Source: Planktothricoides sp. SR001
Lineage (GTDB): Bacteria; Cyanobacteriota; Cyanobacteriia; Cyanobacteriales; Laspinemataceae
Assembly: GCF_001276715.1 (NCBI RefSeq)
Contig: NZ_LIUQ01000030.1
Location: 29,305-81,446 of the forward strand
Direction of reading: 5' to 3'
DNA: 52,142 nucleotides
The position numbers and the translations under genes are program-made. The notes beneath the pieces were generated by a model. The model ran no database searches, was not told the origin of the DNA, and worked only from the letters and a program-made list of their open reading frames with translations. Numbering within the stretch: position 1 is the stretch's first letter; the number at the start of each line of letters is the position of its first letter. Shown piece after piece: positions 1 through 46,422 of this stretch.

Positions 1-325
1 TGTAGGGGCAAAGCATTTGCGCTATTAGCACTGCCCTGTCCTCCTGCCATATCCTTGTTCCCTTCTTAAAACATTCTCGATCGACAAAATCTCTCCAAAA
101 TCTCCCCAAAATCTCTCTTTGTGTCCTCTGTGTCTCTGTGGTTTCGATCCAGCCGTGTCCTTCGTTATCTCTCGTTCCCAGGCTCTGACTGGGAATGCTT
201 CTCTGGAGGCTCTGCCTCGTGTCAGAAAAACCCGAAAAAACCCCCCCAACCCCCCCTTACTAAGGGGGGGCTTACTGATAAAATAGGAAAAAAAATCCTA
301 GCCCCGACGTGCCCGTCCAACCACA
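1..325. repeat. Gene-free stretch of dispersed repeats
   Basis: No credible gene is seen. The stretch is a patchwork of elements found again elsewhere in the window: a GTAGGGGCAAAGCATT-type element (compare 50491 and 52123), a piece resembling the GTGTCTCTGTGGT element (compare 30820, 38680, 43970, 46380, 50455), a CCCAGGCTC...CTGGGAATGC element (compare 6231 and 6560) and a C-tract/G-tract inverted repeat at about 239-269 like the one inside the kinase gene near 5075. Small ORFs here overlap these repeats and are not supported. Confidence 0.6.
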
Positions 326-1075
326 ATGGCAGACTTAATTCCCTACCTCATCATTCAATCCCCCAGTGGCGAAGAAAAAAAACTCGAACTCCGTGACACC
401 CACTACACCATTGGCCGACTTTCTGATAATGACATATCTTTATCCGAAGATCCAAATAGTCTCATTACCCGCATCAAGCACTGTATTTTATATCGAGAAG
501 CGGGACAATGGTTATTAACTGATAATAGCACCAATGGCACCATCGTGGAATGGGGCGAAAACCGAGAAGACATTCACCAAAAAACCATCGCCCTGAAACC
601 GGAATCAGCGATTTTAATTCACCACTGGAAAATCACGTTTTTCGACCCCAATGCCACCAACAAATATAAAACTAAGATCGTAAAACCATCGGCAGAATTA
701 GCGGAATTACCGAAAAAGCCATTAGAAACCAGCAGATTTATTTACAAAATCTCTCAAGCTACCTTGTATCATCAAATTGGCACAGAACGCACCGCAATTC
801 CCTGCCGTCCCCAAGTAAATGCCATGCTGCGATATATGGCACAAAAAAATTTAGATAATCAAGGAGAACCCATTGTTTGTGAATATCAAGAACTGATTTC
901 TGCGGTGTGGGGCAACGGGCTAGACGCGGAAGGACGCACTGCTTTAGAAGTCAATGGATTAGCCCGCGATATTCGTAAATTATTAGAAGAATATAGTAAT
1001 ATAAATGATGCAGAAGCAGCATTAGTCACTATCCGACGTATGGGTTATTTATTAAAAATTCAATCTGAATGGTAG
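326..1075 (+). CDS. FHA domain protein with C-terminal OmpR-type winged helix
   Basis: 249 aa. An FHA phosphothreonine-binding domain occupies about residues 20-95: the Gly-Arg pair at 30-31, the IKH around 50-52 and the STNGT loop at 68-72 match the FHA signature. The C-terminal 100 residues resemble an OmpR/PhoB winged-helix domain, including a VWG turn, a recognition-helix-like [11 protein letters not shown] and the hallmark TIRRMGYLL at the end. No receiver domain is present, so the FHA module appears to replace it. FHA domains read phosphorylated Ser/Thr kinase targets, and a Ser/Thr kinase is encoded 2.1 kb downstream as the DGR target; a kinase-to-FHA-to-DNA circuit is inference. The gene lies 50 bp upstream of avd on the same strand and may be co-transcribed with the DGR. 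Confidence 0.85.
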
Positions 1076-1124
1076 TGAGGTAATTCGTGAAAACACTAAA
1101 AGGCAACAACTAAATTATCAGCTT

Positions 1125-1481
1125 ATGGAAGAATTACCCATTATCCAAAAAACCTACGATCTAATTCAATGGTATATTCCCCTGCTCAACAAATTGCCTC
1201 GCGACCATAAAATGGCATTAGGAAGTCGAATCGTTGATGGACTTTACGACTTGCTTGAATCTCTGATTATTGCTCGATATTCATCCAATAAACTAGAATT
1301 GTTGCGGAGTTTAAATCCCAAAATCTCGGTTTTACGCTATCAAACTCGTCTGCTACTAGATTTCAAGCTATTTTCTAGCCAACGGTATGAATATGCGGTA
1401 AAACTAATTGATATTATTGGCAGCGATCTTGGTGGTTGGATTGCTCAACAAAAAGATTCATTTCCAAAAAAAATTCATTAA
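1125..1481 (+). CDS. avd: DGR accessory variability determinant (Avd-like four-helix protein)
   Basis: 118 aa, close to the usual Avd length of about 120. It is all-helical, with four amphipathic segments and the family-like pattern of an N-terminal [19 protein letters not shown] helix followed by helices rich in basic and aromatic residues. Avd proteins form pentameric barrels that bind the DGR reverse transcriptase and template RNA and are needed for mutagenic retrohoming; that is family knowledge. Its position directly upstream of a DGR-type reverse transcriptase (35 bp between stop and the proposed start) strongly supports the call. The alternative would be the related S23/four-helix-bundle family, but context makes Avd much more likely. 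Confidence 0.88.
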
Positions 1482-1515
1482 CCATTTTTACCCAGGTAAA
1501 AATTCTATCAAACCC

Positions 1516-2571
1516 ATGAAATCTTTCAACAATCTCTGGCCAAATGTCACTAATTTTGATAATTTACTTCAAGCAGCCCGTCAAGCCCAAAAAAATAAAC
1601 GATTTCGCGAAAATGTTCTTAAGTTTAATGATAACTTAGAAACAAACCTCATTCAACTGCAACAGGAATTACAAACCAAAACTTATCAACCGAGCAAGTA
1701 CAAGGCTTTTCATATTTTTGAGCCAAAAAAACGGCTGATTTCTGCTGCTCCCTATCGCGATCGCGTTATTCATCATGCTCTTTGTAATATTATTGTGCCG
1801 ATATTTGAACCCACTTTTATCCCTGACTCCTACTCCAACCGAGTCGGTTTTGGCACCCATCGCGCTGTCAAACGATTTACTCAGTTCTTCCGCTCCAGTC
1901 GTTATATTCTCCAATGCGATATTCGGAAATATTTTCCCACTATCGATCGCGAAATATTAAAGTCCTTAATTCGCCGAAAAATTAAATGTCACGATACCCT
2001 ATGGCTGATTGATTTAATCATTGACAACGGCAATGACCAAGAACCCATCGTGCATTATTTTCCCGGAGACGATCTTCTCACTCCCTTAATGCGACCTTGT
2101 GGTTTACCCATCGGCAATTTAACCAGTCAATTTTTTGCCAATATTTATCTTAATGGTTTCGATCGCTATCTCAAAGAGCAGTTGAAAGTTCGCAAATATT
2201 TACGCTATGTTGACGATTTTGCCTTGTTTTCTGATGACCGGCATTTTTTAATGGATGCGCGAGTTGCGATCGAGGAATACTTAGCCACTTTGCGTCTAAA
2301 AATTCATCCGATTAAAAGTCAGCTATTTGAAACCCGTCATGGAGCAAATTTTCTGGGTTTTAGAATTATGCCCGATCGCATTCGTATTTGCTCTAAAAGT
2401 CTAAAACGGGGTCGCCGTAAACTAAAATATCGCCTAGAACAATATCGCCAAGGTGAAATCGATCGCCCTACTTTAAAAAGTTCCGTAGCTAGTTGGCAAG
2501 CGCACTTAAACCACGGCGATACTTGGCGATTACAACAAAAGCTATTTGCTCCTCTCGATGACTTGCCTTAA
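1516..2571 (+). CDS. DGR reverse transcriptase
   Basis: 351 aa from the ATG at 1516. An in-frame start at 1408 would overlap avd and encode a low-complexity leader, so it was not chosen. Palm motifs are intact: motif A CDIRKYFP with Asp135, the DGR-diagnostic IGNLTSQ at about 199-205 (group II intron enzymes have QG...SP here), and the catalytic YVDD at 231-234, followed by the thumb-proximal GANFLGFRI. There is no maturase X or HNH domain, so it is not an intron enzyme. It copies the template repeat RNA with adenine-specific errors and feeds the cDNA into the variable repeat. It sits between avd and the template repeat on the same strand, the natural order for a DGR cassette. Confidence 0.95.
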
Positions 2572-2707
2572 CTAAGTTATCTGGTTTGGTGGGCAAATTT
2601 TTTAGACTTAGCAATAATTTAAGGATTTGATTCATTTGCCCACCCTACAACAGGCTTGTTTTAACTGGCGAATTAGCTTATAATACAAACACGGGATGGA
2701 CGATTTT

Positions 2708-2831
2708 AGCTGTTGCGTGGCGGAAACTGGTACAACAATCCCAGGAATTGCCGTTCGGCGCATCGTAACTACCACGATCCGGGCAATCGGAATCACAATA
2801 TTGGCTTCCGTATTGGGATCTCCCTGCCGAG
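2708..2831 (+). other. DGR template repeat (TR)
   Basis: A 124-bp segment, 136 bp downstream of the RT stop and on the same strand. It aligns gap-free with the reverse complement of 3220-3343, with 112 identities and 12 differences. All 12 differences are adenines in the TR (positions 2725, 2732, 2734, 2737, 2743, 2746, 2767, 2768, 2771, 2774, 2785, 2786) replaced by T, G or C in the VR. Translated, it reads as a lectin-fold C-terminus rich in Asn/Tyr/His codons, typical of TRs that place AAC/AAT/TAC/CAC codons at diversified sites. The last 45 bp or so (2787-2831) are identical despite containing adenines and should act as the homing (IMH-side) anchor. It has no start codon context of its own and is not a gene. 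Confidence 0.96.
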
Positions 2832-3156
2832 CACTTTTCAACTGCCAGAGTTGTTGAATGGGAATTCAACAAGCGTGCGATCGAAAAGTTCAGTTCCATC
2901 CCAGAGATATCGGTGACGGTGAGCCACTGCGGTCTTGGGGTCTCCCCAAGTAGAGCAAGTGGCGTGTCTCCCCAAGTAGAGCAACTGACGAACCCGTAGG
3001 GCGAACCCGAAGGGTATCCAAACATCAACCGGAGTCGGATATTTTAGTAGTACATCGAAAGATTATCCGACTCTATCTTATTGATTTAAAGTCAAAACTT
3101 CTCATACTTAATTACATATACTTAATTACCAACTAGCAATAAACTGAAAAAAGCTC
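2832..3156. other. Spacer between template and variable repeats
   Basis: No supported gene. It contains two direct copies of a TCTCCCCAAGTAGAGCAA element near 2939 and 2970, a short GAACCCGTAGGG/GAACCCGAAGGG pair near 2991-3015, and AT-rich sequence after 3050. In characterised DGRs the sequence 3' of the TR is part of the structured template RNA that primes cDNA synthesis, so part of this stretch may be functional RNA; that is inference. Confidence 0.4.
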
Positions 3157-3179
3157 AAAAAAAAAAGGCGCGAAGCGCC
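3157..3179 (-). terminator. Hairpin plus T-tract downstream of the VR gene
   Basis: Read on the minus strand, GGCGC-TTC-GCGCC (3179-3167) is followed by ten T residues (3166-3157), 34 bp after the stop codon of the DGR target. It has the form of an intrinsic terminator. It may also serve as the hairpin/cruciform that lies downstream of the VR in several DGRs and helps target recognition; the sequence alone cannot separate the two roles. Confidence 0.75.
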
Positions 3180-3212
3180 AAGAGGGAAAGAGGGAAAAAG
3201 AGTAGAGGGAAA

Positions 3213-5327
3213 TTAAGTTCTCGGCAGGGAGATCCCAATACGGAAGCCAATATTGTGATTCCGAACGCCCGGATCGCGGGAGAAACGATGCGCCGAACGG
3301 CAATACCCGGGATCGTAGAACCAGTATCCGCCACGCAACAGCTTATTTTTTTTATGTTCCAGAAATTTTTTCAGTAAATTTTGCCAATTCCCAAAATGAT
3401 AATCATTATCATTCTTATTTTTAGGTAAAACACTAGAAATAATTCGACCAAAAATAGTTTGATAATCATTATCATTATTATCTAGCCACGGACGACCATC
3501 AGTGGGGGCGCCAGTATAGCTGTCATGCCAATCATCTAAACACCATTCCCACACATTCCCATGCATATCGTGCAAACCCCAAGCATTCGCCGCATTCAGG
3601 CTACCCACCGGAATAGTCTCTCCCCGAAGAACCCCTTGCTGACCCCTGCCGTAAGTATGGTCGCCGTCGTAGTTAGCCACTTCTGTGGAAATAGTTTCCC
3701 CAAAATGAAAGGGCGTAGTAGTCCCAGCACGACAGGCATATTCCCATTCTGCCTCGCTGGGCAGACGGTAGTTTTTCCCTGTTTTCTGACTCAACCGCGC
3801 ACAGAATTCGATACAGTCGTACCAACTGACCTGTTCTACGGGGCAGTTGTCCCCTTTGAAGAATGACGGGTCGGGGTCGAGGTCGCGGTGAATTTTCGGC
3901 AAATTAGCCACCACCCGCCATTGAGCCTGGGTAACTTGAGTTTGCCCCAGGCAAAATTCCGCGATCCTGACTTGATGTTGCGGACATTGACTGTTGTGAT
4001 ATTCCAATTCTTTATCCGGGGAACCCATCAAGAAGCTGCCAGAGGGAATTCTCAGCAGGGGAAACTCCACGCCGTTGATGCGTTCGATATAGCCTTGGTT
4101 GCTGCCCTGGTTGCGGCTGCTGATATTGCCTTGGGGGTCGAGTTTTACTACAGCGTAGGAGAATGTTTTCCAGTGGATTCCCGCCTGCGCGGGAATGACA
4201 GGAGAGTGGATTCCCGCCTGCGCGGGAATGACAGGAGAGTGGATTCCCGCCTGCGCGGGAATGACAGGAGAGTGGATTCCCGCCTGCGCGGGAATGACAG
4301 GAGGATGGATTCCCGCCTGCGCGGGAATGACAGGAGAGTGGATTCCCGCCTGCGCGGGAATGACAGGAGGATCGATTCTCTGCGCGGGAATGACAGGAGA
4401 GTGGATTCCCGCCTGCGCGGGAATGACAGGTGGTTTCAGCGCCTCTAGTACCCGTTCAGCCGTCCACCGTTGCCGTCTGTCCTCTTGCAAACAGCCCCGG
4501 ACAATTGGCTCTAACTCTGAGGGAATATTATTTGGCAAAACTAAATTACCAGTCATCACCTGCTTGAGCAACTGAGTTTGTCCCTCAAAACTATAAGGAA
4601 CTTGTCCGCTAACCGCATTCACCACCATAATTCCCAGAGACCAAACATCCCAAGCCGTAGAAATCTTACCTCGATCGCCGAATGCTTCCGGGGGCGTATA
4701 GGCAAGAGTGCCAATAGGGTTGGCAGTTTGGGCATAACTCTGAGTGCCCAAACTCCGCACTAAACCAAAATCAGACAATTTCCAGGTATTGTTCAGCCAG
4801 AGAACATTTCCCGGCTTCAAATCCCGATGCACTTTATTTTGACCGTGCAGGTAAACCAACCCCGCCGCCACATCCCCAGCCAATTTTTTCGTATCGGCCA
4901 CGGACAGCTTGCCCTGTTCTAGGCGCTTCTCTAGGGAATATTCGGCTTTTTCCATCACTAAATAAAGAAAGTCAATCCCATTTAACTGGCAATCTCCTGC
5001 TGCATAAGAGCGGATTAAATTAGGATGGTCTAAACTAACCGCTTCAATCAGTTCCTCAAGTTGCTCGTTCAACCCCCCCTTGCCCCCCCTTACTAAGGGG
5101 GGGTTGGGGGGGTTGGGGGGGTTGGGGGGGTTGGGGGGGTTCTGCCCAGCCTCGCTGTCGTCGGCAATCAACTTAATCGCCAATTCTCGCAGCAGCCGGT
5201 CTCGGACTACTTCATCGGCCAGAAAAACGCCCCCAAAGCTCCCGGCGCCGAGCACTTTTCTTAAATGGTACAGGTCTTTGATTACCTCTCCTACGAACAC
5301 TTTGTATAGCAGTTCAGCTTGATTCAT
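3213..5327 (-). CDS. DGR target: Ser/Thr protein kinase fused to FGE/C-type-lectin domain
   Basis: 704 aa from the ATG at 5327, four bases after the upstream radical SAM gene; a longer in-frame start at 5444 would lie inside that gene. The kinase domain spans about 20-298: glycine loop GAGSFGG (27-33), Lys52, HRDLKPGN (167-174), DFG (186-188), PPE (212-214). Residues 299-385 are eight VIPAQ-type 11-mers encoded by a palindromic repeat array. The FGE/sulfatase-modifying-like domain covers about 413-704, with IPSGSFLMGS, YRLPSEAEWEYACRAG, GNVWEW and a C-terminal VR. No transmembrane segment is seen. Kinase-FGE fusions are a known class of cyanobacterial DGR target, so the lectin end probably binds a diversified ligand and the kinase reports it. 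Oddities are a repeat-derived insert in the beta3-alphaC loop (about 62-88) and a duplicated NDNDY block 21 residues apart (about 617-643) just before the VR. Confidence 0.93.
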   Translation of the reverse strand: MNQAELLYKVFVGEVIKDLYHLRKVLGAGSFGGVFLADEVVRDRLLRELAIKLIADDSEAGQNPPNPPNPPNPPNPPLVRGGKGGLNEQLEELIEAVSLDHPNLIRSYAAGDCQLNGIDFLYLVMEKAEYSLEKRLEQGKLSVADTKKLAGDVAAGLVYLHGQNKVHRDLKPGNVLWLNNTWKLSDFGLVRSLGTQSYAQTANPIGTLAYTPPEAFGDRGKISTAWDVWSLGIMVVNAVSGQVPYSFEGQTQLLKQVMTGNLVLPNNIPSELEPIVRGCLQEDRRQRWTAERVLEALKPPVIPAQAGIHSPVIPAQRIDPPVIPAQAGIHSPVIPAQAGIHPPVIPAQAGIHSPVIPAQAGIHSPVIPAQAGIHSPVIPAQAGIHWKTFSYAVVKLDPQGNISSRNQGSNQGYIERINGVEFPLLRIPSGSFLMGSPDKELEYHNSQCPQHQVRIAEFCLGQTQVTQAQWRVVANLPKIHRDLDPDPSFFKGDNCPVEQVSWYDCIEFCARLSQKTGKNYRLPSEAEWEYACRAGTTTPFHFGETISTEVANYDGDHTYGRGQQGVLRGETIPVGSLNAANAWGLHDMHGNVWEWCLDDWHDSYTGAPTDGRPWLDNNDNDYQTIFGRIISSVLPKNKNDNDYHFGNWQNLLKKFLEHKKNKLLRGGYWFYDPGYCRSAHRFSRDPGVRNHNIGFRIGISLPRT
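3220..3343 (-). other. DGR variable repeat (VR)
   Basis: Coding-strand copy of the template repeat at the very 3' end of the kinase-FGE gene, ending seven bases before the first base of the stop region (stop at 3215-3213). Ten codons carry the 12 adenine-derived changes: residues 668, 670-672, 674, 675, 682-684 and 688 of the 704-aa protein. The invariant residues between them (Trp669, Pro673, CRSAHR, DPG, NHNIGFR) are scaffold positions of the lectin fold. Non-adenine TR positions are unchanged across all 124 bp. Confidence 0.96.
4172..4432. repeat. 33-bp tandem array of inverted-repeat palindromes inside the kinase gene
   Basis: Eight units, each centred on ATTCCCGCCTGCGCGGGAAT followed by GACAGG and a short GATGGATT/GAGTGGATT linker. 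The sixth unit on the plus strand (about 4371-4396) is shortened and has lost the left arm of its palindrome. Each unit is 33 bp, so the reading frame is kept on the minus strand and gives an 11-residue period. The same palindrome family (dRS3/REP-like) appears singly at about 6347, 7027, 7440 and 48655 and as a second array in drmA at 49612-49885. Confidence 0.9.
5068..5142. repeat. C-tract/G-tract repeat inserted in frame in the kinase N-lobe
   Basis: AACCCCCCCTTGCCCCCC and TACTAAGGGGGGGTTGGGG sequences form an inverted repeat extended by four or more GGTTGGGGG units. On the coding strand it yields an NPPNPP tract followed by LVRGGKGGLN. The related intergenic repeat is seen at 239-269 and near 13090, so this looks like an intergenic repeat captured by the gene. 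Stacked G-runs could form G-quadruplex structure. Confidence 0.8.
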
Positions 5328-5331
5328 TTTT

Positions 5332-5976
5332 CTAAACCCGAATGATAATTCCGCGTTTTTGCATTTGTGCCTCGAACTGTTGGCGAAATTGAGGCATCCC
5401 CGGCACGCCAGTAAAATAAACCTCCCCATTGCTTCCAGACACAAAGGTGAGTCCCGCTGAGTTGTCCCCAGCCGCCAAACGTTCTGCCACCGTGACTCGA
5501 TACCGTGGGGTCAAGCAGAGCAAACGCTGATTCCGAGAACCCCGCCACAATAGGTCATCGTGTTGGGACTGAATATATGTCCCATCTACCAGTAAATCAA
5601 TTTTTTGCAACAATTGTCTTTGGGAGTTGATTCCCTGTTGTTGAAGTGCTTCCAGTCGATATCCCGTATAGCACATTACTCCTAAATCCCGTTCTTGGCG
5701 AATCAGATCGATTAACTGAGTTAAAGCCCCTGCTTGGATCATCGGTTCGCCCCCAGATAAGGTAATGCCTTCGATGTGCGGTTGCCCCAATACCCAGTCA
5801 GCCAGTTCCCCCAGGGTAATTTCTTCGCCACCGTTATGATCCCAAGATTCGGGAACGATACAACCGGGACAAGCGAAAGCACAGCCTTGAACCCAGATAA
5901 CCGCTCGTTGTCCGGGTCCCAATACTCCCACGGGGGCTTCTCGACGAAAAATGCGTAAGGTGGTTTGCGGTGTCAT
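5332..5976 (-). CDS. Radical SAM 4Fe-4S protein (NrdG/activase-like)
   Basis: 214 aa. The CX3CX2C cluster motif is at Cys32, Cys36 and Cys39, followed by GGEP at 75-78, which binds the SAM amino group. The size and the GCxFxCPGC context resemble small activating enzymes such as NrdG and PflA. No glycyl radical enzyme is present nearby. It ends 4 bp before the start of the kinase-FGE target on the same strand, so the two are almost certainly co-translated. A role in modifying the diversified receptor or a substrate it recognises is inference. The start ATG at 5976 is used; about 300 bp of repeats lie upstream. Confidence 0.85.
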   Translation of the reverse strand: MTPQTTLRIFRREAPVGVLGPGQRAVIWVQGCAFACPGCIVPESWDHNGGEEITLGELADWVLGQPHIEGITLSGGEPMIQAGALTQLIDLIRQERDLGVMCYTGYRLEALQQQGINSQRQLLQKIDLLVDGTYIQSQHDDLLWRGSRNQRLLCLTPRYRVTVAERLAAGDNSAGLTFVSGSNGEVYFTGVPGMPQFRQQFEAQMQKRGIIIRV

Positions 5977-6288: not shown

Positions 6289-6291
6289 ATA

Positions 6292-6416
6292 AGTAGGTGG
6301 GCAGAAATAAATGCACCACAGACCAGATCGGGAGAAAAACTGTCATTCCCGCGCAGGCGGGAATCCACAGCCTATCGGCGGGGAACGAAAAGTGCAATTA
6401 ATTATGTTCACCTACT
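6292..6416. mobile_element. MITE copy A (about 125 bp)
   Basis: Terminal inverted repeats AGTAGGTG (6292-6299) and CACCTACT (6409-6416) are flanked by TA on both sides (6290-6291, 6417-6418). The interior carries the ATTCCCGCGCAGGCGGGAAT palindrome and no ORF. TA target duplication is typical of IS630/Tc1-type transposition, which suggests an IS630-mobilised MITE; a decayed IS630 transposase lies at 11093-11609. Same orientation as copy B. Confidence 0.85.
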
Positions 6417-6418
6417 TA

Positions 6419-6608
6419 CCAAGTTATACCAAGCATCAAAAATTATTGCTACGATTTCGAGGTTAATTTGGGCGCAAGCATTGCGCCCCTACAGATGCCA
6501 AATCACCAGATATTGTAGGGGCGAATGCGAGAACGCCCCTACATTTAATATTTTTCCTCGTTCCCAGGCTCCAGCCTGGGAACGAGAATGGAATCTTGCC
6601 CATCCTAC
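6419..6608. repeat. Dispersed repeats downstream of vapC
   Basis: GGGCGCAAGCATTGCGCCCC (6470), a GTAGGGGCGAATGCGAGAAC element (6514) and a CCCAGGCTCCAGCCTGGG palindrome (6563) are all repeated elsewhere in the window. No gene is supported. Confidence 0.5.
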
Positions 6609-7139
6609 TTACCAAATTGTCTGAATATTAGTTAAGGATTGAATTTGCGCGTCGCGAGTGACTAAGGGAAGATTCAAAGATAACGCAGTGGCGGCAATAA
6701 TCCTATCAGGCATATCTGGCACTAGATGGCGGGGAATCTGACGCAAAGTTTGTGCTGTTATTAAATTTAAAGGGGCTATTTCTAATTCAGTCTCCGCATC
6801 GGATAAAGCCTGAATTAGTTGCCCAAATGCCTCTTCTGGCAATCGATATCTTTCCACTAGATAGCCTACTTCTACCACAGAAATCGCTGATACATAAATC
6901 AGATATCCTCCTGTAGATGCAGTATCTAAAGCATTCATAGCGGCTGGCGATAATCGAGTATGATCGCGCAAATAAGTAGGTGGGCAGAAATAAATGCACC
7001 ACAGACCCAATGAGAAAAAAACTGTCATTCCCGCGAAGGCGGGAATCCACAGCCTATCGGCGGGGAACGAAAAGTGCAATTAATTATGTTCACCTACTTA
7101 CCAGATAATTGTATGAGTGTCAGCGACAACGGCTGTCAT
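6609..7139 (-). pseudogene. vapC: vapC PIN-domain toxin split by a MITE
   Basis: The original start is the ATG at 7139, overlapping the vapB stop as TAATG. Thirteen codons (MTAVVADTHTIIW) are followed directly by a TAA created by the MITE end. Removing the MITE and one TA joins TGG to TATTTGCGC and restores a continuous PIN protein of about 130 aa (IIWYLRDHTRLSP... to NIQTIW). The intact protein would have the PIN acidic residues Asp7, the VVE glutamate and the MPDR/TRD aspartates. The remaining downstream ORF can be read from an ATG inside the MITE, giving a foreign leader in place of the first strand with Asp7, so nuclease activity should be lost. Confidence 0.88.
6975..7098. mobile_element. 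MITE copy B inside vapC (124 bp)
   Basis: Same element as copy A, with AGTAGGTG/CACCTACT ends and TA duplications at 6973-6974 and 7099-7100. It carries the GCGAAGGC version of the internal palindrome. It interrupts vapC after codon 13, and precise excision with one TA restores the frame. Confidence 0.92.
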
Positions 7140-7363
7140 TAAAAATCCTCTCTGGGAAAATTTCCCCACATTTCCTTTCTAGCTTGGGCGATATCTGCTT
7201 CCGTAATATTGATATCTAAATTATTCCACATTCCTTTAACACTTTTCCGAGGTTTTTTAGAAATGATTTTTTGTTGAAGAAACTCAGCAAAATCTAAAAC
7301 TTCTTGTTGCTTATCTGGGGGCAATGTCTGCAACTTATCTAAAACGGCTTGCTCTAAATTCAT
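7139..7363 (-). CDS. vapB: VapB-type antitoxin (DUF2281-like)
   Basis: 74 aa. The LEQAVLDKLQTLPPDKQQEVLDFAEFLQQK start is typical of the DUF2281/VapB-like antitoxins common in cyanobacteria, and the C-terminal half is the acidic, flexible toxin-binding segment. Its stop overlaps the vapC start by one base (TAATG), indicating translational coupling. Because vapC is broken by MITE copy B, this antitoxin now seems to be an orphan. MITE copy C lies only 24 bp upstream of its start and may have displaced or supplied the promoter. Confidence 0.85.
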   Translation of the reverse strand: MNLEQAVLDKLQTLPPDKQQEVLDFAEFLQQKIISKKPRKSVKGMWNNLDINITEADIAQARKEMWGNFPREDF

Positions 7364-7386
7364 TGTTAATTTTCTCCGTAATTATA

Positions 7387-7511
7387 AGTAGGTGAACATA
7401 ATTAATTGCTCTTTTCGTTCCCCGCCGATAGGCTGTGGATTCCCGCCTGCGCGGGAATGACAGTTTTTCTTCTAATGGGGTCTGTGGTGCATTTATTTCT
7501 GCCAGTCTACT
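7387..7511. mobile_element. MITE copy C, inverted orientation (125 bp)
   Basis: The reverse orientation of copies A and B: AGTAGGTGAACATAATTAAT at 7387 and a degenerate CAGTCTACT right end at about 7503-7511, with TA on both sides (7385-7386, 7512-7513). It contains the ATTCCCGCCTGCGCGGGAAT palindrome. Its position just upstream of vapB places it in the promoter region. Confidence 0.85.
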
Positions 7512-7721
7512 TACCTGATTTTTTTCATGTTTTAGCCAATATGCTCCGGCGATCGCATTTTTGCCATGACTTTGAGCTAATTACTATCCTATCAAATTCC
7601 ATGTAAATTCCATATTCCTGACATTCTTCTCCTATGGAGTTTTTCCCCAACCAACCTTAGTCTGGAGATAACCCTAGAAACCGGGTTTCTGCATCAACAC
7701 TATATATAAGGAGAAACTCCC

Positions 7722-16258: not shown

Positions 16259-17695
16259 ATGGCGATCGGTCTGTCAAGCATCTCTAATATCATCCCTCAA
16301 GCAGAAACAGAAAATCTCAGGGAAATTGATATCCTTGACAAGCAATTATATGACCACTTTAAAACTAAATTTTTAGTCCAATCCTCCCTGACTAGACTTT
16401 TAGTCAGCTTTCAGGCAAATAAAACCAAACCAATGTATCGGTGGTACAAGTATAAAGAGGCGTTTTCCGCTTCTTTGGTGGAGTTTTTATTCCAGAAATA
16501 TGAGATTTTCCAAGGGAAGATTTTAGATCCTTTTGCAGGGAGCGGGACGGCTTTATTTGCTGCCGGGGATCTGGGTCTTGATGGTGATGGCATTGAATTA
16601 TTGCCCATTGGTCAAACCATAATTGAGACGAGAAAAATTTTTAATTCTGAATTTACCTCCGATGATATTGCCCGTTTAAAAGACTGGGTTAAATTGCCGT
16701 TATGGAAAAATTTTGAACATGAAACAAGTCTGCCAGAATTTAGAATTACTCAGGGGGCTTATTCCCTAGAAACTAAAACAGCCATTGAGGAATATATAGC
16801 CCGGTGCGATCGCGAAAATCCCAGAGTAAAAGCAGTTTTAATGTTTGCTTTACTTTGTATCTTGGAATCCGTAAGTTATACCCGAAAAGATGGGCAATAT
16901 CTGCGGTGGGATTATCGTTCTGGTCGGGGTTCGGGGAAAAAACCTTTTAACAAAGGTGAAATTTTAACCTTCGAGATTGCCATCAGTCAGAAAATCAATG
17001 AAATCATCAATGATTTAGAACCAAACATAGAGCAAATCGAGCTTTTTCCCACCCAAAAGCCGCAAGGTCTGATTAATTTGTACAAAGGATCTTGTTTGGA
17101 ATTAATGCCCAGTTTACCTGATGCCAGCTATGATGCTATTATGACCTCTCCCCCCTATTGTAATCGATATGATTACACTCGTACTTATGCCTTAGAACTG
17201 GCTTTATTGGGGGTTTCAGAACAGGGATTAATTGAGTTTCGTCAGCAAATGTTAAGTTGTACGGTTGAAAATCGTCCTAAAAATTTGTTAGCTATTAATT
17301 CAAACTGGGAATTGGCTGTAAATCTGGCAGATAGTCAATCTCTATTGCAAGCTATTTTAAAATATTTAGATAACCAAAAAATAGAAGGTTTATTAAATAA
17401 CAAAAATATCCCCAGAATGGTCAAAGGATATTTCTATGAAATGGCTTGTGTCATCCAAGAATGCTCTCGTGTCCTTAAACCAGGAGCGCTTTTATTTATG
17501 GTTAATGACAATGTGCGTTATGCTGGGGCAAGCATTTCCGTGGACATGATTCTTTCTGCCTTGGCTGAAAAAGTAGGCTTTATTGTAGAGAATATTCTGG
17601 TTTTACCCAGTGATAAAGGCAACAGTAGTCAACAGATGGGAAATCATGGCCGCGACCCTTTAAGAAAGTGTGTTTATGTATGGAAAAAGCAATAA
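16259..17695 (+). CDS. DNA methyltransferase of an AvaI-type R-M system
   Basis: 478 aa, close to the length of M.AvaI. SAM-binding motif [10 protein letters not shown] is at about 88-97 and the catalytic TSPPY at about 297-301; the order (SAM motif first, some 200 residues before SPPY) and the TSPPY form point to an amino-methyltransferase, probably N4-cytosine as in the AvaI family. It should protect the host at the site cut by the endonuclease that starts 44 bp downstream on the same strand; from that partner the predicted site is CYCGRG. The pair lies between two 55-bp direct repeats, a sign of acquisition or loss as a unit. Confidence 0.88.
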
Positions 17696-17739
17696 ATGAG
17701 ATGAATTTAAATCAGATTAATTTAAATTAATTTAAATCT

Positions 17740-18708
17740 ATGAGCGCTTATCTTAACCATCTGAAATCTAGTGACGATCTGGTGACAACTTATGAAGCCA
17801 CCCGTGCCGGATTTGTAGCCCTTGCCCTGGAGAGAAATCGACAGGCTGCACCTTATATTGCCGAAGCAAAAGCACTTCAAGCAGCGGCAAGTCAAGCTGT
17901 CAGTGCGGCTGATTTGCTCAAGATTAAGGATATTGAGGTGGGATTGTTAACAGCGGCAGGACTATCTCAAAAATCTCTTAATTATTTGACTCCAGAAGAT
18001 AAAATTGATGCAATCAATGGGCTGATTCAGAATTTTCTTGAGCCAGCAGCGGCAAATTTTGTGGAGGAATTGGTGTTTAGATTTCTCCTGACTCGTGGTG
18101 ACACCCTTGGTGGTTCAATGCGTAATATCGGTGGAGCATTAGCACAAAGAAAGTTAACCCGTGCTATCCTTTCGACTCTGAAAATTGCAGGTCGTCAATA
18201 TTCTTGGCAAGATTCCAGGACTAAACAATGGATAGCCATGACCAATGATGATATAGAAATTGAGTTATCTTTACGCGGGATAAACTGGCAGAGTGAAGGA
18301 GAGAATCGCACCCTAATTTATAATCTGAAGGTGCCATTAGTCAGGAGCAATGTGGATCTATGTTTATTTAATCTTCCCCCGACCGAACTGGTAGTGAATA
18401 AATCCAGTAAAATTCAGCCATCTGAAACTGCACCATCTATCATCGCTTTGGGTGAACTAAAAGGAGGCATAGATCCAGCCGGAGCAGATGAGCATTGGAA
18501 AACAGCACAAGCCGCACTAAATCGGATTCGGGAAGCATTTTCTAAAGTTGGCTATTTTCCTAATACTTTCTTTGTCGGATCGGCAGTAGCAAAAAGGATG
18601 GCCGATGAAATTTGGCATCAACTGGAGGAGGGGACGCTCACTAATGCGGCTAACCTGAATCAAGAGAATCAAGTTGCATCGATCGCTCGTTGGCTATGCA
18701 ATTTATAA
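17740..18708 (+). CDS. Type II restriction endonuclease, AvaI/BsoBI family
   Basis: 322 aa, against about 315-323 for AvaI and BsoBI. Stretches I recognise from that family include [18 protein letters not shown] near the N-terminus, [23 protein letters not shown] in the middle, [20 protein letters not shown], and the active-site segment [19 protein letters not shown], where Glu and Lys of ELK are the metal-dependent catalytic pair and the His is catalytic in BsoBI. Family members cut C/YCGRG. It is intact from end to end, so the system is probably active. Specificity is inferred by homology from memory and not tested. Confidence 0.9.
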
Positions 18709-42021: not shown

Positions 42022-43932
42022 TTAAAAATCTTTTGGGAAAAAAGCAGCGTTTTCTCTGGCGATGGTGTTGACTACTAAGGCGCGATCGAGAAAGTCGTTA
42101 CTTCTTTCACAAGAACTTTCCGCAATTAACACGCAACCATGACAAGCTGCCCCTTGTAATAATGCATCGTCTTCGCGATCGCCGGGGATATGTTGAGAGC
42201 AAATCGGATCGTTAGAACATATTTCTCCGCTTTCTAAGGCTAGTTCGAGGTAATATTCTAAGCGATCGCCGATTTCAATTAATCCCCCTAATGTGCCTTC
42301 AGAACCACTCGAACCCGTATAAATTAATATACCATAACCGAGGTCATCATTAGCATAAATTCTTTCTTTAATTGCCGTAGAAGAATAGCCGCATTTTAAG
42401 GAAATGGTAGTAATTAATAAATGGGATAAAGAATGCAGCATGATGTATGGCATTCCCGGAAAATGTTCCTCTTTTTTGGGAATATTGTTAATTTCTAGCC
42501 ATGCTTTATAGCCTCTTTGTAAATCTTTGCAGCGTTCGATTACCGGCGATCGCTCTGCCCAAGTTTTGATTTTTTCTTGGTTGAAAGAAAAGAAAATTCC
42601 CTCTCCTTTATTGGCGATCGCGGGCACCCATGATATTCCACTGGTTTCCCAGTCTAAACTTGCCCGACGGACATTAATATCTAATTCCCCGTTAATATCT
42701 GGCATTACCGCTTCAAACCGCGTAAAACCTACTTGGGCAATTACTTCTCGGAGGCGGTGAACTAAGACAATTTTATCTAGGAAAGGTTGCCAGTTACTTT
42801 CGATGGGTTTTCTGCGTAAATATGCCTCAAAATCTACCTCATCAATAGGTTTATTTTGTGCTGCTTGGGGTTCTGGTCCACAAGCTAACAGCACCTCTAA
42901 CTCCGCCTCTTTAATGGTTTTTTCCACTTCGGGATCGTCGCTTTTTCGGCGTTCTAATTCTTCCCACAGTTTATCGATATTAAATGTTTTTAATTCAGCA
43001 TATCTTTTCTTTTTTAATTCATATTTTAAATCTTCAATACTTTCGACTTCCTCTAATTCATCGGGATAAAATTTATCCACGACTTTTCTTAATTCGTGGT
43101 CGGAGTCCGGCAAAGAAATCACGCTGAGAGTTTGACTAAAATAAGCGTTACTAGCCGATCGCACTAATAAACGGCTTTGTTCCGGTTCATTAGTAGGAAT
43201 TAACTCCTCGGTTTCTGGATCTCGTTTATAACCTTGGCATTCTTCTTTGGTGTTTTTAGTCGGATTTAACCACGGGCGATCGCCCAAACATTTGCCTAAT
43301 ATTTTGGAATTGGGTAACTTAGCCAAAGAAAGGGGATGGCGTTTTTTACAAGCGTCACAGCGGACGAAAATTTCCTCAAAATCATTCCCCGAACCCGCTT
43401 CATCTAACCAAATTTGTCCTGGGCAGTTGGTTTGAAAATCTTGATGGGCAAAAGCCCGCCAATTAATATCACTTAAATGGCCATTTACGCAAGCTTGAAC
43501 AAAGCGAACGGGCACCGCATGGCATTTTTTCCCTTCCCATGTACAGCCTTTTTTAATCCCACTCCAAGGGAATAGGGGACGAGTGCGATATAGCTTACCT
43601 TGAATAGTAATATTGCGTTCGATTTGCACTAGAAACCAGCGGGGAAATACAAAAGCATCGATGCCAGAAATCGCCGCCCCCGTCGGGTCGGAATCATCCA
43701 CAGGTGGGGCATAAAGTTGCACATTTTCCCCTGGATTTATCTTTAATATTTTTTGCACTTTTTGCCGCAGACGTTCTTCTTGAATTGGTTGTTTATATCC
43801 TTTCCAATAGGATAAACCGCTAATCACCACAGACTGTTCTGGTAAGTCTACCATTGCCCCCGGCCCAAAGGTAGTAAGTAGTTGACTTTGCCGGAGTTCG
43901 CCATCAGGTTGAATGTTATTTGTATTTGCCAT
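42022..43932 (-). CDS. drmB: DrmB-like DUF1998 protein of a DISARM-related system
   Basis: 636 aa. RQSQLLTTFGPGAMVDLPEQSVVI at the N-terminus is the characteristic DrmB opening. Zinc-type cysteine clusters follow (CVNGHLSDINW, CPGQIW, CDACKKRHPL). A C-terminal DUF1998 domain (LHSLSHLLITTISLKCGYSSTAIKERIY ... GYGILIYTGSSGSEGTLGGL) ends with CSQH and CHGCVLIAESSCE. In DISARM, DrmB forms a complex with the helicase DrmA that loads on invading DNA. It is last in a four-gene minus-strand operon with drmA, a methyltransferase and a putative endonuclease. Confidence 0.92.
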   Translation of the reverse strand: MANTNNIQPDGELRQSQLLTTFGPGAMVDLPEQSVVISGLSYWKGYKQPIQEERLRQKVQKILKINPGENVQLYAPPVDDSDPTGAAISGIDAFVFPRWFLVQIERNITIQGKLYRTRPLFPWSGIKKGCTWEGKKCHAVPVRFVQACVNGHLSDINWRAFAHQDFQTNCPGQIWLDEAGSGNDFEEIFVRCDACKKRHPLSLAKLPNSKILGKCLGDRPWLNPTKNTKEECQGYKRDPETEELIPTNEPEQSRLLVRSASNAYFSQTLSVISLPDSDHELRKVVDKFYPDELEEVESIEDLKYELKKKRYAELKTFNIDKLWEELERRKSDDPEVEKTIKEAELEVLLACGPEPQAAQNKPIDEVDFEAYLRRKPIESNWQPFLDKIVLVHRLREVIAQVGFTRFEAVMPDINGELDINVRRASLDWETSGISWVPAIANKGEGIFFSFNQEKIKTWAERSPVIERCKDLQRGYKAWLEINNIPKKEEHFPGMPYIMLHSLSHLLITTISLKCGYSSTAIKERIYANDDLGYGILIYTGSSGSEGTLGGLIEIGDRLEYYLELALESGEICSNDPICSQHIPGDREDDALLQGAACHGCVLIAESSCERSNDFLDRALVVNTIARENAAFFPKDF

Positions 43933-44192
43933 AGGATTAGGTTTTAATGGTGGGTTAATGGTGGGTATTTTTTACCACAAAGACACAAAGGACACGAAGT
44001 TTAAGTAGGGTGTGTTAGGCGCGGTGATAATTAATATTATAAACCATTAAATGAACTGTCCGCGCCGTAACGCACCTGTTTAGGTTGAGGGTACAGAAAC
44101 CGGGTTTCTTAGTTAACCTTTGGATATTTGCGTAAATTTTCGCAGAAACCCGGTTTCTTGGTTGCTTAATTAGCGTTGAATATTAAATTTTA
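43933..44192. repeat. Repeat-rich gap upstream of drmB
   Basis: GGATTAGGTTTTAATGGTGG then a TTTTTTACCACAAAGACACA element (about 43933-44000) also occurs just upstream of the methyltransferase (46352-46411). Two AGAAACCGGGTTTCT-type palindromes (44097, 44145) and a GTAACGCACC element follow. The operon may be split into two transcripts here. Confidence 0.65.
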
Positions 44193-45104
44193 TTAAAAAT
44201 GACCCTGATTGAGAACATTCTCCATTGATGGGCTTGTATCATCAATGAGAGATTGGATCTTATCGATCATTCTTTGAAATACATCACTATAGTATCTAGA
44301 GGAATCCAAAAAATCTATATATTCCTGTCTATGGTTTCGTCTTGCTTCTGGGGTTCTATACTCTTGGCGAATATTAGAGGACATTCGCTTCGTCTTGCGG
44401 ACGATTAGAACATCATCAATTTGAGTTGAGATCAGCGAAACTGGGGTCATATCCAGAAATTCACAGACAATAAAATATAAAGATCCAGGAACAGCAGTTT
44501 TTAAGTCTCGACTTGTCGCTACTGCCTCTTGAAACATCGTTTTGTCTAGATTAGTTTTACACTCTGCACAAACATATCCAAGATGTGACTCAATGAACTT
44601 ACAATCTTGAAATTCTCGGTCGAATGATGATTTTAGATATAATTTTTTACCCAAGATAAAGTCTTGGTCTTTACTTCTAATAATTGGTTCACCACCTTGA
44701 CCTAAATTTCCCAGAGATGATAGAAAACTTAATCCAGCAAACGTATTTCTCGGTCCTAACTCAAAAGAATCATCGATTCCCCGCAAACTACGAAAAACTA
44801 CTTGTGGCAAGAATTCTTCTAGGATAGTATTGTCTAGTTTTAACTGTCCTTTCTGTCTGTATAGAAAGTTTTCTGCACTATCAAAAATAAAATCAAGTTC
44901 GATAAAACGCTTGTATCGATTGGTTGCCTCGACGAGTCTTTCAACCGTATCCGGTTGACCCCGTTCAATTGATTCCATATCCGATATCCATTGATGATAC
45001 TTTCTGATTGCTTCTTCTAACCGTTCTCGATCAGATTCAGGTAAGCGACGGTTGTTGAGACAAGCGATTAACTTTGTGTAATGAGGTCGAGAAATCTCAG
45101 GCAT
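44193..45104 (-). CDS. Putative Bpu10I-like restriction endonuclease
   Basis: 303 aa. The N-terminal 110 residues are helical and charged. In the centre, PRNTFAGLSFLSSLG and YVCAECKTNLDKTMFQEAVATSRDLKTAVPG resemble the catalytic region of Bpu10I-type endonucleases, where Glu and Lys of ECK would belong to a PD-(D/E)XK site; DQDFILGKKLYLKSS lies upstream and could supply the first Asp. Placement directly after a DNA methyltransferase (40 bp) supports an R-M pair. It is not a PLD-type DrmC. Family assignment is from memory of motifs; function as a nuclease is inference. Confidence 0.6.
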   Translation of the reverse strand: MPEISRPHYTKLIACLNNRRLPESDRERLEEAIRKYHQWISDMESIERGQPDTVERLVEATNRYKRFIELDFIFDSAENFLYRQKGQLKLDNTILEEFLPQVVFRSLRGIDDSFELGPRNTFAGLSFLSSLGNLGQGGEPIIRSKDQDFILGKKLYLKSSFDREFQDCKFIESHLGYVCAECKTNLDKTMFQEAVATSRDLKTAVPGSLYFIVCEFLDMTPVSLISTQIDDVLIVRKTKRMSSNIRQEYRTPEARRNHRQEYIDFLDSSRYYSDVFQRMIDKIQSLIDDTSPSMENVLNQGHF

Positions 45105-45144
45105 AGAGTGAAGTTTTATTTTTATTTTATTGATAATTTTACAA

Positions 45145-46347
45145 TTATTTTATCCGATCGCTAACTATTTTTCGATCTAAAATCGGGGTACTTTTAATAT
45201 AGTCTACTTTATCAATAGCCTCTTCAAGCAAACCGATATTTTGGCGATCGCATAAAGAGAGACCACTCTTTAATATATCAAAAGCTACCTCCCTGGCAAT
45301 TTTTACCACGGCTTCCTGTGATATTTTATTATTCAAATTATAAAAACCAATAATATCTTCTCTGATTAATTGGCCAAACTTATTTTTAAATTCTCTTTTT
45401 TGCCTTAATTTTTCTTTAAGTAGGTTAGCTTTTAACCCAATTTTTTCGATGATATCCGCATTATAAAATGGTACGCCCATTACATTAGATTTATGCCCGA
45501 TAATCAGGACGATTCGGGCTTTTTCTTTGCTGACTCTAGAAATCTCTCTGAGAGTATCAGCCATGTCTAAACAGTATTGAACTACTGTGTAAAATCGATT
45601 GCTTCTGTTCGCTCTATTGGAGCCAATTTCTGACCGGGCTATTTTTAAAATATCCCAGCCGAGTATTTCAGCGGATTTCCGATAGTTTTGATGATAATTA
45701 AATACATTAATATAGGGGGGAGATGTGACGACAAAATCTATCGAATTGCTTTCTAAGGGAAGCGATCGCGCATCGGCTAAACCCATATTAATCGGCTGGT
45801 TGGAGTAAGGAATATTTTCCATAAGATTTACCAAATCAGCAAATTTTGCCTGAACAGATTCATTGGTGACAGTATTATTGGCGATATCGAGTAAAATCAC
45901 CAATGCGTCAAATATCTTGATTGATTCTCGATCTAGCTGATGCCTAATATTGTTGATTTTTTCGGCAAAATTATCCACTGGACTTTGGGCAAAAATTCTA
46001 AAAGGAAACTCTCGATCTATAACTTCTCTGAGAAGGTTAATCGATTGTTTTTTTCTGGAGTTATTAATAAATTCATATATTGTGCTAAGTATCCAAGCTG
46101 CCGGATTAACATCAAATCCATAGGCTTCAAGCTGGAGAATTCCCGCTTCTAGTAAAACAGTGCCGCTGCCTGCAAAAGGATCTAAAATTACCGAATCAGG
46201 CAGGCAGTATTCATTCAGGATAACCTCAATAAGCTGAGGCGAAAATTGACCGCGCCAGGTAAACAAGTTAGACCTGGTTTTTTCCACTATGTCAAGTTTT
46301 TCTTTTGGGATTGGTTTGTCAAACTGCTTCAATGTTTTCTGGTACAT
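45145..46347 (-). CDS. DNA methyltransferase of the DISARM-like operon
   Basis: 400 aa from the ATG at 46347; a longer start at 46398 would translate a dispersed repeat. SAM motif [10 protein letters not shown] is at 54-63 and catalytic TSPPY at 208-212, an amino-methyltransferase (N4-cytosine or N6-adenine). Between them lie about 145 helical residues; the C-terminus carries a likely target-recognition part. It shares motif style (TSPPYxN) with the AvaI-type enzyme at 16259 but is clearly distinct. It should mark self DNA for the DrmAB/endonuclease system. Confidence 0.88.
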   Translation of the reverse strand: MYQKTLKQFDKPIPKEKLDIVEKTRSNLFTWRGQFSPQLIEVILNEYCLPDSVILDPFAGSGTVLLEAGILQLEAYGFDVNPAAWILSTIYEFINNSRKKQSINLLREVIDREFPFRIFAQSPVDNFAEKINNIRHQLDRESIKIFDALVILLDIANNTVTNESVQAKFADLVNLMENIPYSNQPINMGLADARSLPLESNSIDFVVTSPPYINVFNYHQNYRKSAEILGWDILKIARSEIGSNRANRSNRFYTVVQYCLDMADTLREISRVSKEKARIVLIIGHKSNVMGVPFYNADIIEKIGLKANLLKEKLRQKREFKNKFGQLIREDIIGFYNLNNKISQEAVVKIAREVAFDILKSGLSLCDRQNIGLLEEAIDKVDYIKSTPILDRKIVSDRIK

Positions 46348-46351
46348 TTGC

Positions 46352-46411
46352 TTAGGATTAGGTTTTAATGGTGGGTATTTTTTACCACAGAGACACAAAG
46401 GACACGAAGAG
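46352..46411. repeat. Shared leader repeat upstream of the methyltransferase
   Basis: TTAGGATTAGGTTTTAATGG followed by TGGGTATTTTTTACCACA and GAGACACAAAGGACACGAAG matches the sequence just upstream of drmB at 43933-44000 almost base for base. Confidence 0.85.
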
Positions 46412-46422
46412 ATTATATTGAA

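Follow-up and report, generated by a model that had tools for sequence, protein, structure and literature searches.

The stretch of DNA analysed here (hereafter the window, 52,142 nucleotides from Planktothricoides sp. SR001) carries an avd gene, a reverse transcriptase (RT) gene, a template repeat (TR) and a variable repeat (VR), the last forming the 3′ end of a kinase-lectin gene. This raises the question of what the element is, and how far its template reaches. I conclude that the locus is very probably a complete diversity-generating retroelement (DGR) of a cyanobacterial clade, in which one template serves four kinase-FGE genes, one adjoining and three remote. The original prediction was of a single complete DGR; that much stands, but it proved too narrow, as there are four targets, the evidence points to action in trans, and the core appears not to be the vertical ortholog of that of the sister species. 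Three genomes of the genus were compared: that of the window (G000, a 165-contig assembly, in which an additional TR or VR could be missing), a second strain of the same species (G059) and a sister species (G001, which appears to be a metagenome-assembled genome). Their templates are labeled TR0 (window) and TR1 (sister type).

Both expected core proteins were found (Table 1). The RT start is best read as ATG 1516, the mechanical ORF start being TTG 1408. By sequence, its nearest solved structure is 8ub7 (“Reverse transcriptase”, E 1e-54), which I take to be the BPP-1 DGR enzyme. It is the sole full-length DGR-type RT in G000, where two other RT matches are partial (28–29% identity), and it resembles RTs of many cyanobacteria. 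A similar core (E ≤ 1e-60) occurs in 62 of 388 genomes of the order; among the matches listed, identity is 83% for the sister species and then about 66–76%. At 36 of 53 related loci, an RT close to that of the window adjoins its own TR-VR pair, the TR being detected within 1.7 kb 3′ of the RT, and this gave 56 local TR-VR pairs, two of which, having 19 and 23 mismatches at non-A sites, were probably aligned in the wrong register and are uninformative. An inverted, convergent target as in the window was seen in 0 of these 56 pairs; when the 1.7-kb limit was lifted, locus L043 gave two inverted pairs with 67% of changes at A, which were not counted as DGR pairs.

Table 1. Features of the DGR and its immediate surroundings (positions in the window).
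Feature	Position	Strand	Basis or remark
FHA-domain gene 5′ of avd, neighbour; putative link to the system	326–1075	+	Pfam FHA, E 2e-9
avd, DGR accessory protein, 118 aa	1125–1481	+	Pfam bAvd, E 1e-17
DGR reverse transcriptase, 351 aa	1516–2571	+	Pfam RVT_1; motifs IGNLTSQ and YVDD
RT-TR spacer	2585–2631	+	91% identity over 47 bp to G059, L191 9354–9400
Template repeat (TR)	2708–2831	+	TR-VR alignment, genome matches, sister comparison
Conserved structured RNA	2827–3088	+	cmsearch, model built without the window sequence: 113.7 bits, E 1e-24, full length 1–168
Hairpin GGCGC-TTC-GCGCC, 40 nt past the target VR	3167–3179	-	GNA triloop on the other strand
Variable repeat (VR), 3′ end of the local target	3220–3343	-	TR-VR alignment
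Local target, 704 aa: Ser/Thr kinase (residues 20–295) and FGE/C-type-lectin domain	3213–5327	-	Pfam
Fer4_12/radical-SAM gene, 5′ of the target, 4-bp gap	5332–5976	-	Pfam

The TR aligns without gaps to the reverse complement of the VR over 124 bp, with 12 mismatches, all of which are A in the TR (seven A>T, four A>G, one A>C). The stretch contains 29 A, and the hypergeometric probability of 12 out of 12 mismatches falling on A is 3e-9. Alignment and A-specificity were reproduced as first described, as was the count of ten altered codons; A-changes turn none of the template codons into a stop. The adenines of the last 45 bp, said to be unchanged, are so in the local VR, but remote VRs vary at template adenines up to 2812. 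The repeat extends to 2836; position 2832, a C in both TRs, is occupied by A in each of the eight G000 and G001 VRs, and therefore lies beyond the transferred part. Judging from which TR differences are copied, this part starts between 2709 and 2715 (as defined by the C94-type target described below) and ends between 2818 and 2832. Across the 12 VRs of the three genomes, each scored against whichever of the two TRs is closer, changes were counted at 179 of 346 template-A sites (83 A>T, 79 A>G and 17 A>C) and at 15 of 1130 non-A sites, and three of the G000 VRs show no non-A change over 95 sites each.

The local target is convergent with the core. Its start is most likely ATG 5327, an in-frame TTG lying at 5444. 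The kinase and lectin domains that had been proposed are recovered by Pfam (Pkinase, E 1e-38; FGE-sulfatase, E 2e-46), but the proposed extent to 5976 is not, since 5332–5976 is the separate radical-SAM gene. The latter is likely co-transcribed with the target and has a putative part in the system; homologs occur in six other genomes of the order, at 57–72% identity. In the predicted structure of the last 320 residues (pLDDT 86), Foldseek matches PvdO (5hha), the T. denticola variable protein TvpA (2y3c) and FGE enzymes, and the VR falls in the C-terminal part of the predicted CLec/FGE fold. The HRD and DFG motifs are kept in the kinases of the window, C144 and C159 targets; in that of C94, DFG is present and FHRDIKPSNI was recognised by eye, outside the motif pattern used. 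The lectin face is taken to bind a ligand and the kinase to be the output, as others propose for such proteins (PMC7517822). Two repeat-derived features set the local target apart from its G059 ortholog: an in-frame insert in the kinase domain (window about 5073–5145, NPPNPP..LVRGGKGGL), which the ortholog is without, and an array of 33-bp interspersed repeats (VIPAQAGIH) in the kinase-FGE linker (window 4173–4429), which is longer than in G059.

Ten window proteins were scanned with Pfam (E ≤ 0.01), giving FHA, radical SAM, ClpB-like AAA_2 (with weaker AAA_5 and AAA_3), PIN and other domains. No vWA or CHAT domain was found among these ten, and a VMAP-type conflict-system reading of the window is weakened.

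The region directly 3′ of the TR would encode a structured RNA. In an alignment of 30 other loci, 40 pairs were identified, 26 of them with compensatory changes, and pairing holds in 96% of cells. None of 500 shuffles attains such values, and structures shifted by 1–3 columns score far lower. This alignment used 30 of the 36 TR flanks, leaving out L012 (the sister’s own), L013, L035, L039, L048 and L057. The first helix involves the TR 3′ end itself, ACTTTTC here and commonly ACTCTTC, which pairs with GAAAAGT or GAAGAGT, a double compensatory change. The covariance model, built without the window, also finds the sister RNA (E 9e-26), gives E values below 1e-10 for 11 of 26 further sources (four of the 26 being G059 loci, which give no match), and has a match in 18 of 59 relatives. 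The window RNA has 97 nt (2916–3012) where the model has two positions, and this loop might impair it. A version of the window RNA cut off at 2918 was rejected, as the model matches at full length with the long loop. Rfam has no family at 2827–3088 in the window up to E 1, and gave no match at gathering score for the RNA of five relatives; five sub-gathering matches (four miRNA families and one H/ACA) to a repeat at about 5052–5130 were rejected as chance. In BPP-1, a structured spacer recruits RT-Avd and primes cDNA synthesis (PMC12875486), and the RNA described here is likely its counterpart and would have an equivalent role. One cyanobacterial locus departs from the usual order in another way, its RNA and TR (L037 1093–1256) lying on the strand opposite the RT.

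A search of the genome with the TR, as had been suggested, revealed three more VRs. Five places in G000 match the TR: its own site, the VR of the local target and one VR each on contigs C144, C159 and C94. All three remote genes encode kinase-FGE proteins. The C144 VR has 14 differences from the TR, the C159 VR 16 and the C94 VR 18; TR adenines account for 14, 12 and 18 of these, respectively. One of the C94 changes, at 2708, is common to the sister ortholog and lies outside the transferred part. The only non-A changes, at four sites, are in the C159 target (hereafter kinA). Its adjoining paralog, kinB, is without such a VR and provides a natural control; it is 97% identical between G000 and G001.

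Comparison of strains had been set beforehand as a test of activity, with variation at non-adenine TR positions as the refuting sign. At two orthologous remote VRs, G000 and G059 differ at 19 and 23 positions, every one a template adenine (p 2e-15 and 8e-20), although 4-fold divergence does not exceed about 4% in 21 of the 25 gene pairs compared (one pair of the 25, at 64%, is a paralog match). These VRs were evidently written in the recent past, in agreement with the earlier view that the element has been active. The refuting sign is absent from both, but it does appear in kinA, which has 4 and 5 non-A differences from today’s TR in the two strains. Of the 24 differences between the two kinA VRs, 21 are at an A of today’s TR; since the strains differ there mostly at adenines, the non-A states are better explained by an older template that had A at 2773 and 2794 than by ordinary mutation.

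The sister species has its own TR and four VRs. At 13 positions the two TRs differ with A in neither, and at these diagnostic cells the VRs carry the base of their own TR in 50 of 52 cases in G000 and in 52 of 52 in G001. A further eight positions have A in only one TR; VRs vary at six of them, and this variation is confined to the genome with the A, except at 2773 and 2794 in the C159 target. In both genomes the TR thus behaves as the unchanged donor, the VRs showing its states and varying at its adenines.

Judged by outcome, one TR appears to write unlinked VRs in trans. The remote VRs could instead be recent copies of the 3′ end of the local target, made by duplication or gene conversion rather than by retrohoming, and the VRs indeed have some 30–40 bp in common on the 3′ side of the transferred part, which suggests that the gene 3′ ends are related by past copying. 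I nevertheless regard this as highly improbable. The remote genes occupy the same neighbourhoods in G000 and G059; G000 and G001 have the kinA/kinB and C144-type neighbourhoods in common (the C94-type neighbourhood was not seen to be), and in the target pairs of these two genomes most blocks are at least 0.9 identical while the linker and VR blocks drop. Each genome’s VRs bear the non-A states of its own TR, and copying from VR to VR would not produce the A-only differences between strains.

In the window, the hairpin past the VR is followed by a T run. When at least five stem pairs, four or more of them G-C, are required (a strict rule), a hairpin lies within 130 nt of 27 of 56 VRs, where 1.2 are expected. 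Under a wider rule, which allows G-A pairs and which was chosen, with its loop classes, after seeing the data, a C-G-closed hairpin is found at 47 of 62 VRs (4.3 expected); this set comprises 55 of the 56 pairs (one flank being too short) and seven further VRs of the genus. The stems are mostly of 4–6 bp and in most cases lie some 33–66 nt beyond where the TR-VR match ends, and the loops are GNA or GNNA on one or other strand in 39 cases, AAA/TTT in six and other in two. Phage DGR hairpins, by comparison, are described with 7–10 bp stems and GRNA tetraloops, 4–34 bp from the VR (PMC3240598). The loop after the local target is TTC in the window and GAA in G059, as if the hairpin had flipped within the species. 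At another locus (L040), the loops after two VRs are GTTA and TAAC, mutual reverse complements. Such loops may be a trace of cruciform extrusion.

Could the hairpin be a mere transcription terminator, with no part in homing? I consider this somewhat unlikely. The T run after the window hairpin would fit a terminator, VRs of other genera in which no hairpin is detectable mostly still follow their TR, and kinA, whose hairpin is broken in G000 and G059 alike, was nevertheless rewritten in one or both of them. On the other side, several hairpins have no T’s directly after them, GNA or GNNA loops recur on either strand at 39 of the 62 VRs, and experiments with BPP-1 assign a role to the DNA hairpin (PMC3240598). 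Within the genus, moreover, the three VRs without an intact hairpin are those with 4–5 non-A differences, while the nine with a hairpin have 0 or 1, although two of the three are orthologs sharing the loss. A simple rule, that a VR is frozen once its hairpin is lost, fits the twelve VRs of the genus but was rejected: several VRs of the wider set with no detectable hairpin follow their TR, and the rewriting of kinA also speaks against it. A part of the hairpin in homing remains the preferred reading.

The second strain shows what targets look like where the core is missing. Its genome (one contig, 7.2 Mb, 99% complete) carries four VRs but gave no match to the core at E ≤ 1e-60, in a search where only 2 of 92 candidates were scored; a firmer test, by protein search, found no RT above 31% identity to the window RT in G059, that is, no DGR RT. 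A plasmid absent from the assembly could carry a core. At the site corresponding to the window, the FHA region is kept (window 1–1081, 97%), and 534 bp stand in place of the core, including the 47-bp piece resembling the RT-TR spacer. No further copy of this piece was found within 255 kb of G000, G001 and G059 DNA, and it is probably the remnant of a lost core, so that a core was probably once present there. The G059 copy of the window target differs from TR1 by 19 A changes and one non-A change, and from TR0 by 17 non-A changes, suggesting that it was written from a TR1-like template; this would account for the 17 non-A positions at which the local target VR differs between the strains.

In the sister species, the core sits between kinA and kinB. 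The kinA-kinB interval of G000 is colinear without a core, and holds a stretch like the 3′ end of the sister’s RNA, a 22-mer of which occurs once in G000 and once in G001; it is likely a scar of the sister-type core site. Searches with the RNA model miss it in both L010 (E up to 10, with one chance match elsewhere) and L190 (E up to 1); the scar, in which just the 3′ part of the RNA would remain, is therefore read only from the sequence alignment with G001. A DUF3368/PIN-like gene, its family recognised by eye, lies in this interval in G000 (L010 7704–8204 and the preceding frame).

How the window core relates to that of the sister admits more than one history. That it is simply the vertical ortholog, fast-evolving and never replaced, I judge distinctly unlikely, although the window and sister RTs are each other’s closest kin (joined with 100/100 support in an RT tree whose frame-broken L049 row is disregarded), TR and 3′ flank are 86–90% identical between them, and the RNA model misses the supposed scar. 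The G000 and G001 genes differ at 46% (35 sites, avd) and 44% (107 sites, RT) of 4-fold sites, against 5–19% in eight other gene pairs, where the upper end is made up of one further gene and, with their VRs included, three of the four target genes in the comparison. From this divergence, the window core appears too diverged to be the vertical ortholog of the sister’s, and the coreless kinA-kinB interval with its scar-like stretch, the 22-mer being unique in each genome, also speaks against it. Either a replacement within the genus or the differential loss of two old copies fits; under either, the G000 VRs now bear the window template, with four exceptions in kinA. It might also be that the element is decaying, active when the VRs were last written and now dead as in G059. 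The absence of a DGR RT and the likely 47-bp remnant in a single-contig genome of the same species lend this some weight, as do the long loop insertion in the window RNA and the repeat insertions in the local target, but I hold it unlikely. The avd and RT frames are intact, and with 88–92% amino acid identity (92% over 111 codons for Avd) at 44–46% 4-fold divergence they are under protein-level constraint; the three G000 VRs free of non-A changes argue in the same direction.

It seems that cores come and go, by loss or replacement, whereas the scattered targets persist and are re-templated. I lean towards a joint account in which stable, scattered “open sockets” (matching ends, tract and hairpin) are served by transient, interchangeable cores of avd, RT, TR and RNA. 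The ancestor of this species would have lost its kinA-kinB core; a diverged core, sited at the window locus, would have taken over and rewritten the scattered VRs to its own template; and a sister strain would then have lost its core, keeping VRs from two or three templates (TR0, an older TR0′ and a TR1-like one). If true, VRs are a fossil record of the templates that passed through a lineage. A literature search, with subscription journals outside its coverage, found no report of core replacement with re-templating and no paper joining DGRs with concerted evolution.

The mechanism by which a core would write its targets can be outlined from these results and from BPP-1. The TR would be transcribed together with the 3′ structured RNA, whose structure is supported by covariation. 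Bound to this RNA, RT and Avd would synthesise cDNA in which random bases stand opposite adenines, as in BPP-1, consistent with the A-specific outcome seen here. The cDNA, over the transferred part delimited above, would then, in cis or in trans, replace the VR of any gene in which the ends match and a pyrimidine tract comes next, in most cases along with a small hairpin, as the outcomes at local and remote VRs suggest; the hairpin would assist at this step. The variable lectin face would finally bind a ligand and control the attached kinase.

Several known systems bear comparison. That kinase-FGE proteins are DGR targets in cyanobacteria as a class, as the original prediction stated, is in print: Vallota-Eastman et al. 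(2020; PMC7517822) describe a C-terminal CLec/FGE variable domain, an N-terminal Ser/Thr kinase in the commonest target, and, as here, remote targets in the same genome. They also proposed recruitment of DGRs from one gene to another. In the present case, trans writing was tested directly by comparing strains and sister species, the core appears not to be the sister’s vertical ortholog, a likely scar lies elsewhere, and the local target is convergent with the core. The DGR of Nostoc punctiforme, likewise cyanobacterial and with more than one target, shows A-specific mutation in culture and a highly expressed TR RNA (PMC12691664); its two described targets lie within the DGR region, whereas three of the four here are remote. 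For the DGRs of Thiohalocapsa PB-PSB1, Dore et al. (2024; PMC10907252) inferred trans action from the agreement of VRs with a distant TR outside its adenines, and RT or TR have been lost there at some loci and in some strains, as is probable here; all four targets here, however, are kinase-FGE proteins, with vWA and CHAT absent from the ten window proteins scanned. Finally, the A-specific homing into a target 3′ end followed by a hairpin/cruciform is like that of the BPP-1 phage DGR (Guo et al., 2011; PMC3240598).

The genus offers a natural experiment on whether one core writes unlinked targets in trans, and on the fate of targets after core loss or exchange. Both points can be tested in culture, since there are closely related strains that either have or lack a core, as well as orthologous VRs written from different templates. 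The covarying RNA 3′ of the TR, in turn, provides a delimited element through which the cis-acting RNA of the cyanobacterial clade can be studied.

Other features were observed in the window. A repeat of ∼130 bp occurs in both orientations (6290–7513) around a PIN gene (6609–7079) and a DUF2281 gene (7139–7363), and has many similar copies in the sister genome. A type II restriction-modification pair (methylase and REase_II) lies at 16259–18708. At 42022–50277, DISARM-like DrmA and DrmB genes flank a Bpu10I-type restriction enzyme and a methylase, and the DrmA frame contains repeated in-frame units.
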